Assembly (NCBI RefSeq): GCF_014133895.1 | Contig: NC_050730.1 | Location: 1,054,001-1,118,000 of the forward strand | Reading direction: 5' to 3' | DNA length: 64,000 nt | Origin: Torulaspora globosa | Taxonomy: Eukaryota; Ascomycota; Saccharomycetes; Saccharomycetales; Saccharomycetaceae | Shown here: one piece after another, positions 22,122-31,181 of the stretch | How the letters are laid out: the number at the start of each line of letters is the position of its first letter | Numbering within the stretch: the stretch's first letter is position 1 | The notes under the pieces: model-generated | Seen by the model: only the letters and a program-made list of their open reading frames with translations | Database searches by the model: none | What the model was told of the DNA's origin: nothing | Made by a program: the position numbers and the translations under genes

Positions 22122-23732
22122 TTAGATGACTATGTACTCCTCTGTCTTCAACGAAGTGATCACGTCATAAGGCAGGGCTTCCTCACCCTCCAGAGAGCTA
22201 GTGACATTAGATATGGACACACCGCTAATGCTTCTACCGCCAGCTTCCGAATGTTTAAATTCGACGTTGATTGGGAATAGACCATCTTCGTAGGCTGCCT
22301 CGATGGCGAAGGCAAAGACGCCTGACGTGGCAGGCGCAATCGACTCTAGTTTTATGGTAACGCCAGTGTCTTCATCGATGTCAACGATTGTTGCATTGTG
22401 TTCATTATTTTCTGCATTGATGGAAACGTTTTCCGTAAAGACAGGAAACGTGAATAGCACTTCGTTGAGTGTCTGTGTGTGATTTTCGTTAACTTCGAAT
22501 TCGACGGTGACATCGAAGACACCATCACTTTGTTCTGATGGTGAGACCCATGTTGAAATCTCCAATGGCAGCAAAGTCTTTTCGTCTGCCCCAGCAACCT
22601 TGCGCCATCTTAACACCCCAAGACTTTGATCGTTCGACGGAAATGCCTTTTCTTTGTCCCTCAGGCTGATGGTTTTTGAGTTCAGGAACTCGTTTTTGTC
22701 GATATTTGGATGAGTTTTGAATTGAAGCGACCTATCTTTAACGTCGACACTCTCATCTAACGCTAATTTCGCGTGTGCTAGCGCCCTGTCGCTCACACGC
22801 AATTCCAACACGCCCTTGAGTTCACTAGAGTTTATCGCGCCATCGCGGGTGATTTCTGCATTTACGGTTTCTTTGATGGAGATCAGTATACCGTTATTGG
22901 TAGGCTTCTCTTCCTCCTGGTCTTGCTGTGGTGCCCTGCTAAATCCGGGCGAGCGACCGCTGGTAGCCATGCCACGTTTAGATTGACCAGCTAATTTCAT
23001 ACCTCTACCATCACCATGATGGTTAGCTTCCGCCGAAGCACGACCATTAGTTTCCGCTGGTCTCTCCCTGTGAGACTGTATATATGATTGTTGGGCAGCA
23101 GCTGACGCGTGGCTATAGTAGCTGTTATACGCATTGGCTACGTTGGGATCATCGCTAGCCATAAATCTGTTAGAAGGAACACTGAATTCTGATGGTACGA
23201 TGCCCATTTTCCTTTCTTGCTCTCTCCTAGCGATTTCTTTTGCACGACGCTTACGCTCCTCAGTCGCTTCGAACTCCTTATTACGTTCAATGATCTCTTG
23301 GATCCTTTCCTCATGCGACTCGAGTGACAGGTAGGTGCTTACCTGAGTGATAGAAAGGTTTTCCTTATAACCCATCACCACAATCTCATCGAAAGAACTT
23401 AAAATTTCAAACGCATTGTCATATATCTCTGCTTCATCAAAGCTGCTCAAATAATGATTGACAGTCTGAGAGAACAGATTTAAAGTCGAGAGATCCATGA
23501 TGATGTTGGACTGGCGATTGGTGATCAATATGATGTAGTAGTCATCGAAGGGCCTGTAGACATACCTCACATGTTCGTCTTCGACGAACGTGTGCTCAGA
23601 CAGTATATTTGTGACTAAACTTTGGAAATTCGACAAAAGTTCAAGAACTCGATCCTTACTTATCTCCGTGAATTGACGCGACAATAGCGGCTTCCCTGCG
23701 CGTGTTGTGATCGAAGCAGCCAACACCACCAT
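22122..23732 (-). CDS. RET2: Delta-COP, COPI coat subunit Ret2
   Basis: A coatomer delta subunit that acts in Golgi-to-ER vesicle transport. From the ATG at 23732 the protein has 536 residues and begins MVVLAASITTRAGKPLLSRQF, exactly the family start; an ATG-like extension five codons upstream is not conserved. The N-terminal longin/adaptin-small-chain domain (residues 1-140) includes FVEDEHVRYVYRPFDDYYI and NIIMDLSTLNLFSQ. A charged linker (ERIQEIIERNKEFEATEERKRRAKEIARREQERK) follows, then a C-terminal mu-homology domain from about residue 280 (ISIKETVNAEITRDG) to the end. Length is close to S. cerevisiae Ret2 (546). Confidence 0.96.
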   Translation of the reverse strand: MVVLAASITTRAGKPLLSRQFTEISKDRVLELLSNFQSLVTNILSEHTFVEDEHVRYVYRPFDDYYIILITNRQSNIIMDLSTLNLFSQTVNHYLSSFDEAEIYDNAFEILSSFDEIVVMGYKENLSITQVSTYLSLESHEERIQEIIERNKEFEATEERKRRAKEIARREQERKMGIVPSEFSVPSNRFMASDDPNVANAYNSYYSHASAAAQQSYIQSHRERPAETNGRASAEANHHGDGRGMKLAGQSKRGMATSGRSPGFSRAPQQDQEEEKPTNNGILISIKETVNAEITRDGAINSSELKGVLELRVSDRALAHAKLALDESVDVKDRSLQFKTHPNIDKNEFLNSKTISLRDKEKAFPSNDQSLGVLRWRKVAGADEKTLLPLEISTWVSPSEQSDGVFDVTVEFEVNENHTQTLNEVLFTFPVFTENVSINAENNEHNATIVDIDEDTGVTIKLESIAPATSGVFAFAIEAAYEDGLFPINVEFKHSEAGGRSISGVSISNVTSSLEGEEALPYDVITSLKTEEYIVI

Positions 23733-24055
23733 CTCAAACAGATACAATTGAGCCCTTTAAGGATTCTAAAGCTTCCTCTTCTCGATCAATGGCTTTAAAA
23801 TCATTTAAATTTAGTGTGTTGTCAGTAAGCGTGCTGTTTTGTCTTGTCAAACTCAATTGGCGAGCCAAAGGCTCTATCAAAGGAGCCGTACAGAAGTATC
23901 TAGAGCGACTCAAAATCGTGTCGCCATTCTAATTGCAGAAGGCCAAGCATCCTCTGGAGTCATTGATGGTTGCGAAATTTCATCTAGAGTCCTTAGCCGC
24001 AGTCGGGAAATATCATCTTCTGATGACAGTTCTTTCGCCTAAAACCTGTTGAATT

Positions 24056-25910
24056 TTAGAGCCAGTAGGAGCTCTCGAAGGCGAAATTGAATGAGTATTT
24101 TTGAGCCAGCTCATAGACCCACATTCCTACTGTTTCGTAGTGATTCGAAGTTAGGTACGTCTCGAATTCTGGTCTATTCAGAAAGTGCCGCACTTTCCAG
24201 AAAACATCCCTGCCAGCTCCTTCTGTTAAAATATCGTATTCCAAAAGGATAATTACCTTTCTAATTCACCTAGCAGATTAACTAAGGGACTTCATGGAAA
24301 TTGATTTCGCCCTCGCAGATCTGTTCAATTGGAGCCGTACCACGCATATGTTTGGATTTAGAACGAAGTCCAACATCAACGGCTATTCCTGCTCGACCAT
24401 TTTAAGCTTTCTTGCTCGGGGTAAGAACTGTATAACGCGGTGATCATGTTTCATTTGCCCCAGGTTAATATGGGTGAATTTCCGAGTATTGGATGGATTG
24501 CTTGGATCGAAGGCAGTTGAGCTGGCGTCAATAATCTGGAGCGGGCACGCAACATGGTTCCGGTTCGAAGATACGGTACACTGAATACCCACCTCTCTAT
24601 CGCGAAACGTTTCTTTGTGGGGTGCGCAGCACTTTAACGCTTAACAGCACTTCAAGTCTTTTGTTGTCCTGCCCCCTGGAACTTGCTATCCTTCTTCTTT
24701 TCACTGTCAACAGGCTTCCGAAATCATCGTCTATAATGGAAGTTACATGAGGCATGAGTGACGAGTTTGGTTCCGAGCTTTGGTTCATGTTCTCTACCTC
24801 ATGCTTTGGTGGATCGGCCACGGTTTCCTTTATCGGACTGCCTTGGAGCTGGTCTCTATGATCAATCAGAATATTTGATCCAGAACCATGTATTTCCAAT
24901 GTGCTTATCGATTTCTTCATGTCAATGAAATTGATGGAGCAATACATTAAATTTGGGAATCCAGCGAGGCCCTTCGCTTCTCTTACGCTCTCTATCCCAC
25001 AATTGTAGCTTGTCGGAAATCAGCTTCCTGGGCTTTGCAAGCGGATTCCATTGTAACTCTTTCACCAGCTCTCGAGGGATCTAACATAAGAATCTCTGTC
25101 CAGGTTTGCTGGCTTCGGTTTACGCTGGTATTTGGGCAATCTCAGCTTGTAAAAGTCCAAAGCATTGAAATCAAGATCAAAAACTGTTCCTGCATGCGCT
25201 TGATGCTGTCACCACAATCATGAAAGACTCACTCAGCTATCCATTCTGTCGGCTGGAAAGATGTGTCTCGGCTTTCTAACAACCAAGAGCCTGATGTGGT
25301 AAATCATTAAGAACAAGTCAACTATCACCGATTCCTGCGCAAACTGCTAGCCTGTGGTATGATATGGTAGAATGGCGCTATTCAGCATCTCATCTTCCAT
25401 ATGAGAAATTCGATGCTGTAAAATGCTGTAAAAGTGCGGGGCATTTCAAGAAAAGTGATTTCACGCTTTTTCAACTCTTTCCTCGACATTTTACGTCCAA
25501 CTTCCACCACCATAGATCTTGAGACATGGTCGTTGAGTTAGCTATTGTATGGACTTCAAGTTCCGTCTTGCCAGTATCTCGCGCCCATCTCAATATAGCA
25601 AGGATTGAGGGTCCAAGCTTTGCTATATTGATCCTTTCCTTAACAAAATTCGTATCGTGGTGGCAACATCGATGATTTCTGTTCTCTGGCCATCTAGAAA
25701 GGCGACGATCGTTAGGCTCCCGCTTGCAGCGAATAACGTCAACAACGCAAGATTGAATGAACTTCGAAAACTCGCTCTTCTCAAACCGAATATAAAAGTT
25801 TGAAGTTTAGAAACATTTTTGAGTAGTCTTTGTGCCTTTTCCAGACTTATGCTCTCTTTTCTCCTGTTATTAGTTGCGCCATAGCCGCCGCCATCGGCGG
25901 CTAATTTCAA
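24056..25910 (-). pseudogene. ZIP2: Broken gene at the ZIP2 position
   Basis: In S. cerevisiae ZIP2 lies between PDE1 and RMR1; after allowing for the interleaved PRE4 and RET2 it belongs here, on this strand. Coding-like minus-strand pieces follow each other in the expected direction but in changing frames. The last 62 codons (24056-24244, ending FESSYWL and stop) read cleanly. Upstream, GIAVDVGLRSKSKHMRGT ends at about 24285, and pieces at 24383-24592, 24597-24947, about 24918-25065 (KELQWNPLAKPRKL) and about 25065-25190 continue. Frame changes or stops fall near 24258, 24284, 24390, 24600, 24930 and 25065. A 95-codon minus-strand frame at 25623-25910 may be the 5' part. Zip2 is an XPF-like protein of the ZMM crossover group. 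Identity rests on synteny and general character rather than an alignment. Confidence 0.72.
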
Positions 25911-26267
25911 TGAAGCATCACTGGGCTCCCCACGACGTAAATAACACTACAACTAGCGACGTCAAGACCTCATTAAAAGTATACGGGAACTGATTAAAAA
26001 TTCAAAGCATAGTACAGTTCAACACTTTGGACTATGTTTTTTTGGATGATTATCAACCATAAGATCAAACGCGCAGTGAGTTGAACTAAACAATAAAATC
26101 CGGTCAAACTAAAAACCAAGATGCCTGCAATTGGCTTTCTGCCCTCGAATGCGCCAGTAGTCATACATCTAGGTACCCTCAATGTCGCACCGTCTGACGA
26201 GGAGGTTCTACCGGACCTGAGCCTGCCCCAATTCCCAAGTGCTGGCGGAACTCCTTGCTTGTAGCTC

Positions 26268-27119
26268 TTAACTCCGGCTGTTTTCCTCTTCATCAGCTTC
26301 TTCATCTACAATTTCAAGCAGCTCGTCAGATTCATTCTCTGAGGCTTCTCCATGTGAGCGCGGCCTGTCTTGTCCACGGTCTTCCATCCTATCCTCCTCC
26401 CCACCTTCGTCTTCGTCATCGACGTCCATTGTTACGGTTTCAACTACTGCAACAGCAGGCGTGCTGGTATCGTCCAGCACCAGAGGATTCGAGCTGTCGT
26501 TTGTGAATGGCTTTATATTACCCAAGGTCGCGGAAGTCTGAGTCAGCTCCACTAAGGCATTATATCTAGAGACAAAGCGCGGTCTTACCGTCAACCTGGT
26601 CTCAAGCCACCGTGGAATATTGTGCTCCATGTTCCTTTCTGATCTTTCCTTTAGGATCTTGAATATGGTAGCAATGTCATCGAACGTTATCTGGCCGTTG
26701 TAAATATTGTCCTCGCATAGCACTATATCCAGACAAGGTATATCCAGCAGTAGTTCCTTCGAAAGGAATGAAAGACTACCGTAAAACTCTTCTAAAAATC
26801 GCCGCAGTGAGGCAAACAGCCCACTACAGGAATCATGGAGATCACTTTCTTTCTCGCATATGATTGAGGAAACATTCGGGAGACCAGTTTGGTCGTCGCA
26901 ATCGAACAACAAAAACAGATCAGTTTCGTATGATACGGTGACACACGGCTTCTCCTTTTTCAATAGCATTTCAGCAGCTTTGCGGGCTTCGATTTGGTCA
27001 GTCCCGTTTGAACCGCTCTCCAATTCATCCTCGGAACCCTCCTCCGGGACATCATCATACCCCAGCAGATCTTCCTCCTCATCAACTAATGACACCTGTA
27101 TGCCATCGCCTGCAGACAT
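26268..27119 (-). CDS. RMR1: Rmr1-like meiotic recombination protein
   Basis: A 283-residue acidic protein at the YGL250W (RMR1) position, between the ZIP2 relic and HFM1. The middle (KPCVTVSYETDLFLLFDCDD, LRRFLEEFYGSLSFLSKELLLDIPCLDI, LCEDNIYNGQITFDDIATIFKIL) resembles yeast Rmr1, whose loss reduces meiotic gene conversion and which has been linked to Cdc20-independent APC regulation only loosely. Both ends are very acidic and low in complexity (EEEDLLGYDDVPEEGSEDE; MDVDDEDEGGEEDRMEDR). It is longer than S. cerevisiae Rmr1 (about 241) mainly through the C-terminal acidic tail. No catalytic motif is visible; identification depends on synteny plus moderate similarity. Confidence 0.75.
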   Translation of the reverse strand: MSAGDGIQVSLVDEEEDLLGYDDVPEEGSEDELESGSNGTDQIEARKAAEMLLKKEKPCVTVSYETDLFLLFDCDDQTGLPNVSSIICEKESDLHDSCSGLFASLRRFLEEFYGSLSFLSKELLLDIPCLDIVLCEDNIYNGQITFDDIATIFKILKERSERNMEHNIPRWLETRLTVRPRFVSRYNALVELTQTSATLGNIKPFTNDSSNPLVLDDTSTPAVAVVETVTMDVDDEDEGGEEDRMEDRGQDRPRSHGEASENESDELLEIVDEEADEEENSRS

Positions 27120-27519
27120 TGTTGCTTCCTATGACCGCCTTATATACCTCACTCTTGTGCAGCTTTTAAACTGATAGGCATTGTTTGTTTATGGTGAGCT
27201 TTAAGCGCGAGCCTCCCTTGTTTGAGTAAACCACCTCCAAGCAAGAAGGAATCAAGTGCTGTGCAGGATAGAGGCTGATAGCACCCCAGTTGAGCACAGT
27301 GCCGTGGCCGACTATGAGGCATAAGTTTGACTCGATATTCAGTGAACCTGAGAGCAACAGGCGAGGGAATGAAATCGGTAGGCTGAGCATCGGACCGGTT
27401 TGGTTTGAGTACTAATTTATTACCCTTTGTGAAGCTTCCATAATCGAGCAGCACACTAACCTGCATTCCTGAGCACTTTTGAACAGAAGTGCTCATGTTA
27501 TGTCTCTTCAGTCAAAGAC
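27120..27519. promoter_or_regulatory. Divergent region RMR1 / HFM1 with 9-bp inverted repeat
   Basis: 400 bp between two meiotic genes. A perfect inverted repeat, TGAGCACTT (27470-27478) and AAGTGCTCA (27487-27495), sits 25-50 bp upstream of the HFM1 ATG. CACTAAC at 27454-27460, a near-match to the yeast intron branch site, is followed by CAG at 27484-27486. The frame from 27487 into HFM1 is open, so a short 5' intron as in S. cerevisiae HFM1 is possible, but I found no good 5' splice site. Minus-strand frames of 74 and 115 codons (27166-27390 and 27149-27496) overlap here and are unrecognised. Confidence 0.45.
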
Positions 27520-30500
27520 ATGACCAAGAGTAAGGGGCTCAATAGCCGCGGAGCTTTCAAGGTTGGTATAACATACAACAGTATCTTAGATGATCGAGAA
27601 AATGAAGAAGAACTGTCTGAAGGCGACAGTGGAGTGAGTTTCTTCACGGCTAAGGACAGCGGGATCGATGCTACAGCTGCTTCTCTCGATAACACTCAGC
27701 CGAGCAGCTTTCTATGCGATAATGATGAAATAGAAACTTCTTCGACTCTGGGCTATAGACAGAAGAAACGGCGGGTGGTTAAGAAGAAGAGTGCTCAAGA
27801 AGGCTGTTTGGGAATCGACGTGCTGCCTGATTCATTTCAAACGGCCTTCTCGTTTCGACAGTTCAATCGGATGCAAACAGAAGCCTTCCCAATTATCTAC
27901 AAAGGAGAGGAAAATTGCGTGATATCCTCCCCAACTGGGTCAGGCAAGACAGTATTATTTGAGCTGGCTATTATGCGACTCATTAAGGATATGAATGGCG
28001 CAACAGAAAATGTAAAGATCCTCTACATTGCTCCAACAAAATCCCTGTGCTGTGAAAAATTCAAAAACTGGAGCCCAAAGTTTTTAGGTCTCTCAGTCGG
28101 AATGCTAACTAGTGACACTTCTTTTTTGGAAACACAGAAGATTAAGAAATGCAATATAATAATAACAACTCCAGAAAAATGGGACTTGCTAACGAGAAAA
28201 TGGAAGGATTACGGTCGTTTGTTTGAGCTTATTAAGTTGATTTTGGTTGATGAGGTTCATATTTTAAGAGAAAGGCGAGGCGCAACTTTGGAAGTTGTCC
28301 TTACGAGGATGAATATATTCTGCGATAAAATTCGTATCATAGCTGTTAGTGCAACCATACCCAATGTAGAGGACATTGCTCAGTGGTTAGGGTCGAGGTG
28401 TCATGGCAAGTACGCTGAGGTACTGGCGTTCGACGACACATACAGGCAGGTGACGTTGGAGAAGCATGTATACGGCTATTCATTCCACGGTACGAATGAG
28501 TTTCAGCATGATTCTCTATACAATTTGAAGCTTGATGAGATTCTGGTCAAACACAGCAAAGAGCGTGCCGTTATGATTTTCTGCCCAACAAGAGCCTCCA
28601 CTGTTTCCACTGCAAAATATATTGCTAAACATTGCCCGAGTTCTATTGCTGGCCAAAGAAGAAATCAAAGCTATCGAGTTGATGACCAGAACCTAGCGTG
28701 CTTGGTTAATCAAGGCATTGCATTTCACCACGCTGGCCTATCCATGGCAGATAGGGAATTTGTGGAGCAAGGATTTCTAAACGGAGTGATCAAGGTCCTT
28801 TGCTCTACCTCCACGTTGGCGGTTGGAGTTAATTTACCAGCCTACTTAGTTGTCATTAAGGGCACGAAGATGTGGAATACGTCAGGCACTCAAGAATATA
28901 CCCAGTTAGATATACTACAGATGATCGGTCGAGCAGGCCGCCCTCAGTTTGAGAAGAATGGCTGCGCAGTAATTCTGACTGAATCTAAAATGAAAGATTC
29001 ATATGAGAAGCTGCTACTGGGCACAGACGAATTGGAGAGCGCCCTTCATTTGGAGCTCATCGAGCATTTAGCCGCCGAAATATCCTTGGGTACAATATTC
29101 TCCATTCAAACTGCGGTGAGTTGGTTGCGCAAGACATACTTTTATGTGCGTTCCAAGAAAAAACCTTCAGCATATTATCAGTTCAACATGGCGGTAAGGG
29201 ACAACCTGGATCAGGATTCTCAAATCACCCATTTTGTACAGCACCTGTTGGACAGACTACTTGAGTTCGAGATCATCGAGCGACAAAATGATAAACTCAT
29301 TTGTACACCTTATGGGAACGCAATGGCTCGCCATTATGTATTATTCGACAGCATGAAGCTATTTCTTGGAGCGCACAATAGCCAGGGTCCGGATGAAATC
29401 TTGAATTTCTTAGCTAATGCCAAAGAATTCGCTGATATCCGTATTCGACAAAAGGAGAAAAGGCTTTATAAAGAGATAAACGGTTCACCACTTTTGCGCT
29501 TTCCTTACCTCACTGACGGCAAGCAGAGCCGAATTATTGGTTCGCCTAGCCAAAAAATATCCTTACTCATACAGTATGAACTGGGTGGATTGGAGTACCC
29601 TTCGTACAATGGTGCCTTTGCCTTACACCAGACAATGGTACAAGACAAGCTACTGGTGTTCCGACATTGCTACCGGTTACTGAAATGCATGGTTGACATT
29701 TTTGTTGAGAGAGAAGACGGCACATCATTGAAGAATGCTCTATTCCTTCTCAGATCCGTAAGCGGCGTGTGTTGGGAAGATTCAGTGATGGTCCTACGCC
29801 AGCTGAAATCCATCGGATTGATCTCCGTCCGAAAACTCGTTCAAAGAGGCGTTCGGTGTCTGCAAGACATGCGTAAACTTTCTGACCAACAAATTGAATC
29901 TTACTTGAGTCTTAAGGTGGGCAACGGATCGAAAATAAAACGCGACGTGAATTCGCTACCACAGCTTGAAATGGAATGTACCCTGGAACATTTGAAAGCC
30001 CAAAAATCACATGTCATCGCAACGTTTAAAGTTCAGATAAGTGCAATCTTTACTTCATCTGTGTGGCATGGCCAGCATTTATCGGTTGATGTAGAAGTCT
30101 CGAAGGCCTCGGGTGAGCTCTTAGATTTCAGACGGATATCTTTGGCTTACCTAGCTTCACCACGAGTTTTCACAGTTGTCGCCGATATCAAATCGAGTAC
30201 TGATAATGTGGAGTTCAGTATGAATTGCTTGGAAGTTGCTGGACTAGGTGAGAGAACAAAATTTTTCGCTGCCGATCTCTTATCGAATTATCCAGAATCA
30301 TTAGTTGTCCCTGCTGTGAAAGGAAATGTACAATGTTTGCGGCAGCCGGAAGACATGGAGAGCTCGCCGTCATCGGATGATAGCATTTTGGAGTATTTAA
30401 GCACTCAGCGTGATGAAGCCCATAAAATGGCGGTAAAAAACGAAAGTGACACATCAGAACATAGGAAAATTCGATCGAATGGCAACTGCGAATGTTATCA

Positions 30501-30912
30501 CTCCTGTAAAGATAAAACGAGATGTAGGCACCTTTGCTGCAAAGAAGGCATACCAGGCAATTGTTTGCGAGGCAAAAATGGGGTTACCAATTCGCAATCA
30601 ATAGCATCAGTAAGCTGTGAGAGAAAAGATTCAGTAAATCCCACCGCAAATACTTCGCTACTGCCAGGGAGCTCGATAATTGTCGAATCTAAACGCTGCC
30701 GAGTTCCACCAGATTTGCTTCGCCAAGTCGCAGGCGATCGCGAGAGCTGGTCCGAATTGGAAGCTGTCAATGCACGAAATGACGATGACCTTCCATCTGT
30801 CTGTCTTCCATACAACGCGGGGCGACCAGCTTCTGCTGCATCTTCCAGTTCAGCTACGACTTCGAACACCGCAACTTCCGAGAAAGCAGAAGAATTGAAC
30901 TCGAGTGCTTAG
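27520..30912 (+). CDS. HFM1: Meiotic DNA helicase Hfm1/Mer3
   Basis: An 1130-residue Ski2-family 3'-5' DNA helicase that promotes interference-dependent meiotic crossovers. Walker A TGSGKT is at residues 139-144, DEVH at 244-247, the motif III SAT in AVSATIPNVEDIAQWLG, and motif VI QMIGRAGRPQFE near 467-478. A winged-helix and Sec63-like region follows (SLLIQYELGGLEYPSYNG, FRHCYRLLKCMVD). The C-terminal Cys/His cluster C990-C992-C996-C1002-C1006-C1007 (CYHSCKDKTRCRHLCC) is the family zinc knuckle. S. cerevisiae HFM1 has a short 5' exon and an intron; here the ATG at 27520 gives MTKSKGLNSRGAFKVG, which covers the conserved start of the protein but may omit a small first exon. The frame is intact over the whole length. 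Confidence 0.96.
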   Translation: MTKSKGLNSRGAFKVGITYNSILDDRENEEELSEGDSGVSFFTAKDSGIDATAASLDNTQPSSFLCDNDEIETSSTLGYRQKKRRVVKKKSAQEGCLGIDVLPDSFQTAFSFRQFNRMQTEAFPIIYKGEENCVISSPTGSGKTVLFELAIMRLIKDMNGATENVKILYIAPTKSLCCEKFKNWSPKFLGLSVGMLTSDTSFLETQKIKKCNIIITTPEKWDLLTRKWKDYGRLFELIKLILVDEVHILRERRGATLEVVLTRMNIFCDKIRIIAVSATIPNVEDIAQWLGSRCHGKYAEVLAFDDTYRQVTLEKHVYGYSFHGTNEFQHDSLYNLKLDEILVKHSKERAVMIFCPTRASTVSTAKYIAKHCPSSIAGQRRNQSYRVDDQNLACLVNQGIAFHHAGLSMADREFVEQGFLNGVIKVLCSTSTLAVGVNLPAYLVVIKGTKMWNTSGTQEYTQLDILQMIGRAGRPQFEKNGCAVILTESKMKDSYEKLLLGTDELESALHLELIEHLAAEISLGTIFSIQTAVSWLRKTYFYVRSKKKPSAYYQFNMAVRDNLDQDSQITHFVQHLLDRLLEFEIIERQNDKLICTPYGNAMARHYVLFDSMKLFLGAHNSQGPDEILNFLANAKEFADIRIRQKEKRLYKEINGSPLLRFPYLTDGKQSRIIGSPSQKISLLIQYELGGLEYPSYNGAFALHQTMVQDKLLVFRHCYRLLKCMVDIFVEREDGTSLKNALFLLRSVSGVCWEDSVMVLRQLKSIGLISVRKLVQRGVRCLQDMRKLSDQQIESYLSLKVGNGSKIKRDVNSLPQLEMECTLEHLKAQKSHVIATFKVQISAIFTSSVWHGQHLSVDVEVSKASGELLDFRRISLAYLASPRVFTVVADIKSSTDNVEFSMNCLEVAGLGERTKFFAADLLSNYPESLVVPAVKGNVQCLRQPEDMESSPSSDDSILEYLSTQRDEAHKMAVKNESDTSEHRKIRSNGNCECYHSCKDKTRCRHLCCKEGIPGNCLRGKNGVTNSQSIASVSCERKDSVNPTANTSLLPGSSIIVESKRCRVPPDLLRQVAGDRESWSELEAVNARNDDDLPSVCLPYNAGRPASAASSSSATTSNTATSEKAEELNSSA

Positions 30913-31181
30913 GTTCTGACGGTGAAATAAAATGACGCCCACTCATGAGAACCAACATTATGATGATTACATCTCTTCGATGTTACCGATGACTCAAATG
31001 TCACTCTCAACGTGAAAACTTTTCGGCTCTGGATTGATAGTATATCTACACTGACCTCCTAGCTAACGTTAGCCGTCCAACTTCAAGGCTTTAGAAACAT
31101 ATCACACCTGGCTTTTCTAAATCAGTTGCTCGACATTTCAAGTAAAAAGTTTATTCGCCGCTTGACGGGCCTCAAAGAAAT

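Follow-up and report, generated by a model that had tools for sequence, protein, structure and literature searches.

What has become of ZIP2 beside HFM1/MER3 in Torulaspora globosa, and why has HFM1/MER3 itself been kept? Both are among the eight classic ZMM genes, on which an even spacing of meiotic crossovers depends. The window analyzed here is a stretch of 64,000 nucleotides (bases 1054001-1118000 of contig 4) from the T. globosa genome with the prefix HG536, which comprises eight contigs and 9.28 Mb. Its HFM1 protein is HG536_0D06080 (P0001; 100% over 900 compared residues); the HFM1 protein of HG537 (P0002), another genome named T. globosa, is 85% identical. We take HG536 to be strain CBS764 and HG537 to be CBS2947. 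In a tree, HG537 HFM1 clusters with P0003 and not with the window strain; given this grouping and the 15% difference in HFM1 protein, the name T. globosa may span more than one species. The comparison with HG537 covers ZIP2, ZIP3, and HFM1 and is made at the protein level, with proteins only on the HG537 side. Lesions were counted in protein-to-DNA alignments that tolerate frame changes. Published work is cited from excerpts of the papers concerned.

ZIP2 is a full-length relic

Between the RMR1-like and RET2-like neighbors (names that we take from yeast synteny), a six-frame reading finds short minus-strand pieces only (Table 1). Do these pieces represent ZIP2? Joined with an X for each break, the 3' pieces find S. 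cerevisiae ZIP2 among the PDB entries (6bzg_B, E 2.4e-8; 6bzf_B, 3.3e-8), and the matches after these two entries lie at E 0.91 and above. The last 200 residues of a single-frame read-through match the ZIP2 protein P0122 of HG537 (HG537_0D00240, 668 aa; E 2.1e-56) and P0123 (692 aa; E 7.8e-43). No Pfam family was found on the pieces in any of five queries. All 668 residues of P0122 can be placed end to end on 2,024 bp at 61-62% identity, so that the similarity, like that to 6bzg_B, takes in the XPF-like domain. The score of 1619, against 58 for the reversed protein, excludes chance.

The alignment to P0122 requires 14 frame changes at a frameshift penalty of 10, 13 at penalties of 14 and 18, and 11 at a penalty of 24, with 4 in-frame stops at each of the three lower penalties and 6 at the highest; that to P0123 (45% identity) requires 15 frame changes and 5 stops. 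The codon at the position of the relative's ATG no longer encodes methionine. The longest open stretches in the three frames are 111, 140, and 85 codons, and alignment and open stretches alike leave no single translatable protein. A preliminary description, made from the letters of the window, had placed a wrecked ZIP2 here by synteny and proposed a frameshift-tolerant alignment to a close relative as a check. That alignment identifies the pieces as ZIP2 and bears out the broken frames, while the extent first given (25910..24056, with at least six breaks in about 1.1 kb) proves too small: the relic runs from 25947 to 23924 and contains between 11 and 14 frame changes and between 4 and 6 stops.

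Table 1. Features of the ZIP2-HFM1 region, in window coordinates
Feature	Position	Strand	Basis
RET2-like neighbor, intact, adaptor medium subunit	22122..23747	-	Pfam
ZIP2 pseudogene, full-length relic	23924..25947	-	PDB match and frame-aware alignment to intact relative
RMR1-like neighbor, intact, DUF2420	26268..27119	-	Pfam
HFM1/MER3 exon 1	27314..27377	+	N terminus of P0001; start from alignment, end placed by hand
HFM1/MER3 intron, with GTAGGC at the start, an internal TACTAAT, and CAG at the end	27378..27511	+	Borders placed by hand from P0001
HFM1/MER3 exon 2, helicase, winged-helix, and Sec63 domains open	27512..30912	+	Pfam, alignment
Out-of-frame remnant of HFM1 C-terminal FLGSD motif	30896..30934	+	Frame-aware alignment

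Could the pieces be exons, or could ZIP2 have moved? Introns joining them were rejected, as P0122 aligns residue by residue across the frame changes and stops without an intron-sized gap. Relocation, an alternative in the preliminary description, finds no support: a search of the whole genome at the DNA level, which a diverged copy could escape, gives a single match. The relic adjoins the RMR1-like gene and HFM1, and the HG537 tags 0D00220 (HFM1) and 0D00240 (ZIP2) are also close to each other. ZIP2 is thus intact in one T. globosa genome and broken in the other. Two relatives appear among the matches listed in the ZIP2 search, though additional Torulaspora-like lineages close to the window strain turn up with HFM1 and ZIP3; in some of these, ZIP2 may be missing too or merely unlisted.

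The damage is local. All nine scanned frames (HFM1 and eight other genes) carry a Pfam family above the cut-off, in agreement with the earlier statement that all neighbors of ZIP2 are intact. The same aligner finds no frame change and no stop in ZIP3 against two relatives, and in HFM1 nothing beyond an intron and one terminal frame change. By these controls, the lesions are local and not a matter of base quality.

Other ZMM genes are broken

How far does the loss extend? Five of the eight classic genes are relics: ZIP2, ZIP4, MSH4, MSH5, and, less securely, SPO16. For ZIP4, one SPO22 match (6.8e-10) lies in a frame interrupted by two stops and another (1.2e-7) in a second frame, and the relic shares a 10-kb stretch with the HORMA gene HOP1. 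A third SPO22 match, on contig 7, lies below the family cut-off inside a 768-codon frame. Directly after the ZIP4 relic is an intact gene of the old-yellow-enzyme type (L013:6909-8135, contig 3; PF00724, 5.9e-123). An open piece behind it (L013, 8447-8752) has no Pfam family above the cut-off and may be a ZIP4 end that was displaced.

Of the six genomic places marked by the MutS_V family, four lie in frames of 964, 960, 1276, and 1021 codons, and the other two contain stops. The broken two also carry pieces of MutS_IV (1.8e-6, L011) and MutS_III (6.3e-13, L012). One adjoins an Ulp1-type protease and a frame that looks sirtuin-like by eye; the other is flanked by a Sas10 gene on one side and a cyclin on the other. 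From yeast synteny, we take them to be MSH4 and MSH5. When aligned with the remaining MutS proteins of the genome, they give 7-16 frame changes, with scores of 188-305 versus 101 for the reversed control; since one intact paralogue aligned to another gives 6 spurious frame changes, none of these figures can serve as a lesion count.

SPO16 is likely broken as well, judging from the sequence, and is the weakest of the five. The candidate, beside RTT107, consists of pieces in two frames. Once joined, their only PDB match is S. cerevisiae Spo16, at weak E values (0.018 and 0.023), and the alignment scores 75 versus 31 for the reversed fragment; the longest single frame gave no relevant match. Relative to the length of each region, the longest open stretch is 140 codons in 2,024 bp for ZIP2, 149 in 2,705 for ZIP4, 206 in 2,350 for MSH4, 180 in 2,150 for MSH5, and 224 in 690 for SPO16. 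The suspicion of a partial ZMM loss, raised from ZIP2 alone, is therefore upheld by ZIP4, MSH4, and MSH5, and probably by SPO16.

Errors of assembly or base calling can mimic frame changes. As an account of these loci they are extremely improbable: CBS764 (the type strain) and CBS2947 were both sequenced with Illumina and PacBio (PMC7282813), the ZIP3 and HFM1 controls and the nine scanned frames are clean as described, and several unlinked ZMM loci are in the same state. For the ZIP2 wreck, long and short reads, clean controls, and unlinked broken loci together led us to reject such errors.

Genes that remain open

Three of the eight genes, ZIP1, ZIP3, and HFM1/MER3, are still open. ZIP3, which the preliminary description had named for a genome search along with the four genes just described, is a 358-aa frame with a RING finger (4.6e-7) and no lesion; its identity to HG537 is 82% in the search listing and 86% in the frame-aware alignment. 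ZIP1 is an 827-codon frame named by its place between a PAP2 phosphatase and a Glrx-like gene, and has no Pfam family above the cut-off. Of the MutL genes, MLH1 (744 codons), PMS1 (908), and a third (683) are open frames. The third would be MLH2 by elimination, a candidate based on the frame, the C-terminal half lying outside the check. Loss of MLH3 was suspected when MutL_C found one gene; it was ruled out by a PF13589 match and PDB naming, MLH3 being a 735-codon frame of which the part read matches the S. cerevisiae protein (6rmn_B, 6.7e-32). SPO11 (383 codons), HOP2 (233), and the part of HOP1 that was read are open, as are three Rad51-family frames (404, 290, and 477 codons), among which we take the 290-codon exon to be DMC1. 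The survey of meiotic genes left out MND1, MEI5, SAE3, RED1, MEK1, REC8, NDT80, MUS81, MMS4, YEN1, EXO1, ECM11, and GMC2.

Might the relics be the first sign that meiosis as a whole is being given up? The same doubt has been raised for Eremothecium gossypii (PMC3276169). We consider it quite improbable here, with SPO11, DMC1, HOP2, MLH3, ZIP1, ZIP3, and the read part of HOP1 all open and with recent homing elements of the WHO10 type, whose movement is assumed to take place in meiosis, reported from T. globosa (PMC7282813).

HFM1/MER3 and its C-terminal tail

The preliminary description called HFM1 intact, with 1130 codons. Its helicase, Sec63, and winged-helix domains are indeed open, and a cysteine-rich "zinc knuckle" was seen, by eye in the translation only. 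Length and 3' end need correction. A short 5' exon and an intron bring the deposited protein (P0001) to 1154 aa, more than the 1130-codon frame alone, and a frame change near the 3' end puts other residues in place of the conserved last 12. The intron starts with GTAGGC, versus the usual yeast GTATGT. The S. cerevisiae MER3 gene also has a special, meiosis-regulated intron.

At this end, MER3 proteins mostly carry the consensus F-(L/F)-(G/D)-S-D-(V/I)-(D/E)-(L/F), which is present in 118 of 120 proteins among the matches listed, mostly from S. cerevisiae, and in 17 of the 19 diverse proteins used for the tree. It is absent from P0001 and P0015; the out-of-frame remnant in the window strain and the HG537 sequence disagree at 4 of 12 positions. 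P0015 sits on a long branch in the tree and could come from another ZMM-less species. The window strain thus flags a conserved Mer3 motif for which the literature searched, in the excerpts available, yielded no description of a function. What might the tail bind? The C-terminal region of Mer3 is unstructured and contributes to self-association (PMC10201424), and a C-terminal part binds Mlh1 in two-hybrid assays while being dispensable for the interaction in meiotic cells (PMC5215242). From these reports, candidates for the lost partner are a ZMM protein, Mlh1, and Mer3 itself; to settle on a ZMM protein would be bold. R893 of S. cerevisiae Mer3, needed for Mlh1-Mlh2 binding and recruitment (PMC5215242), corresponds to an arginine in the window HFM1.

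Is selection on HFM1 and ZIP3 relaxed?

With outgroup P0004, the window strain has 39 unique HFM1 changes and HG537 has 81 (1072 columns, chi2 14.7); the counts are 35 versus 64 with outgroup P0005 and 45 versus 93 against P0003, fewer than in the sister in all three comparisons. For ZIP3 they are 8 and 20 against HG537, 11 and 29 against P0125, and 16 and 17 against P0126: fewer in two of three and equal in the third. ZIP2 gives 59 and 62 (629 columns). Set against HFM1, this amounts to a two-fold shift (Fisher p 0.013); set against ZIP3, the shift is not significant (p 0.06). These protein counts give no sign of relaxed evolution in HFM1 or ZIP3, although the slower rate of HFM1 could be a lineage-wide effect.

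Are the open genes simply next in line? The whole ZMM set may be leaving, with HFM1, ZIP3, and ZIP1 open without a selected role because their turn has not come. This is how Mer3 has behaved in Lachancea, where it was lost four times, after other losses (PMC9851511); ZIP3 is gone in the other loss lineages, as far as the excerpts describe them, and the HFM1 tail motif has already been lost in the window strain. We nevertheless hold such a lag to be unlikely. At the lesion rate of ZIP2, and presuming equal time since release, HFM1 exon 2 should have collected about 28 lesions, ZIP3 9, and ZIP1 21, and the probability of no lesion would be ~1e-4 for ZIP3 and ~1e-9 for ZIP1; the unique changes in HFM1 and ZIP3 argue in the same direction. 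The earlier proposal that Mer3 is kept for another role is plausible as to retention and fits the lack of relaxed HFM1 evolution; the role itself is conjectural.

What could Mer3 be retained for?

In S. cerevisiae, ZMM proteins protect joint molecules, which Mlh1-Mlh3 cuts into interfering crossovers; Mer3 with Mlh1-Mlh2 limits conversion tracts, and when Mlh2 is lost from zip4 or msh4 mutants, their spore viability rises (PMC5215242, PMC9851511). In the window strain, the core of the class I interfering route has probably been lost, the ZZS and Msh4-Msh5 genes being pseudogenes, while Zip1, Zip3, Mer3, Mlh1-Mlh3, and the third MutL are kept and meiosis presumably goes on. Crossovers would then arise mainly by ZMM-independent resolution and, given the gene content and by analogy with L. 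waltii and K. lactis, should show little interference. Mer3 would persist because it acts on recombination intermediates independently of ZMM, its most likely task there being to restrict gene-conversion tracts together with Mlh1-Mlh2, and only its tail would have been released from constraint. The Mlh2 role is not a general reason for keeping Mer3, as L. waltii has Mer3 without Mlh2 and Lachancea shows the four later Mer3 losses.

One speculation goes further and is possible but doubtful: a stripped-down route of Zip1-Zip3-Mer3 and the Mlh1-Mlh3 nuclease might operate, the FLGSD tail would be a docking peptide for one of the lost partners, freed from selection once that partner was gone, and yeasts would lose ZZS and Msh4-Msh5 first, next Zip3 and Mlh2, and finally Mer3. 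How Zip3, Mer3, and Mlh3 are used without Msh4-Msh5, and with what effect on crossover spacing, is directly testable in T. globosa.

Comparison with other yeasts

ZMM loss in yeasts is a known kind of event, here caught part-way. No description of it in Torulaspora was found in the open-licence literature, as represented by titles and the starts of abstracts, without supplements. What is new are the readable relics, a ZIP2 that is broken in one strain and intact in the other, and a different set of retained genes, which suggest an order of loss.

The comparisons that follow are with the published excerpts. L. waltii, like the window strain, has lost ZIP2, ZIP4, SPO16 (likely here), MSH4, and MSH5 and kept ZIP1 and MER3, and its meiosis continues with little interference (PMC9851511, PMC11460703). 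In Lachancea, the ZMM loss lies on an old branch, after L. kluyveri, and ZIP3 and MLH2 are gone too (PMC9851511, PMC11460703), whereas in the window strain ZIP3 and the third MutL are open and the relics can be read. L. kluyveri itself shows little interference although all ZMM genes are present (PMC11460703). Z. bailii and Z. parabailii, of the same family group, have likewise lost ZIP2, ZIP4, MSH4, MSH5, and SPO16 (likely here) and kept ZIP1; both lack ZIP3 and MLH2, unlike the window strain, where ZIP3 and the third MutL are open (PMC5433688). E. gossypii resembles T. globosa in a loss relative to a congener, but only ZIP1 is left there, while the window strain keeps MER3 and ZIP3 too (PMC3276169). 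Kluyveromyces lactis shares the loss of MSH5, described as frameshifted there, and of SPO16 (likely here); these two are the only genes listed as missing, whereas the window strain also has a broken ZIP2, ZIP4, and MSH4 (PMC11460703). Crossovers in both K. lactis and L. waltii show little interference, with gamma values near 1.2 (PMC11460703). In Lachancea, the genes that were lost together went on a single early branch, which conceals the order of their loss; with relics in one T. globosa genome and an intact ZIP2 in another, it becomes directly testable.
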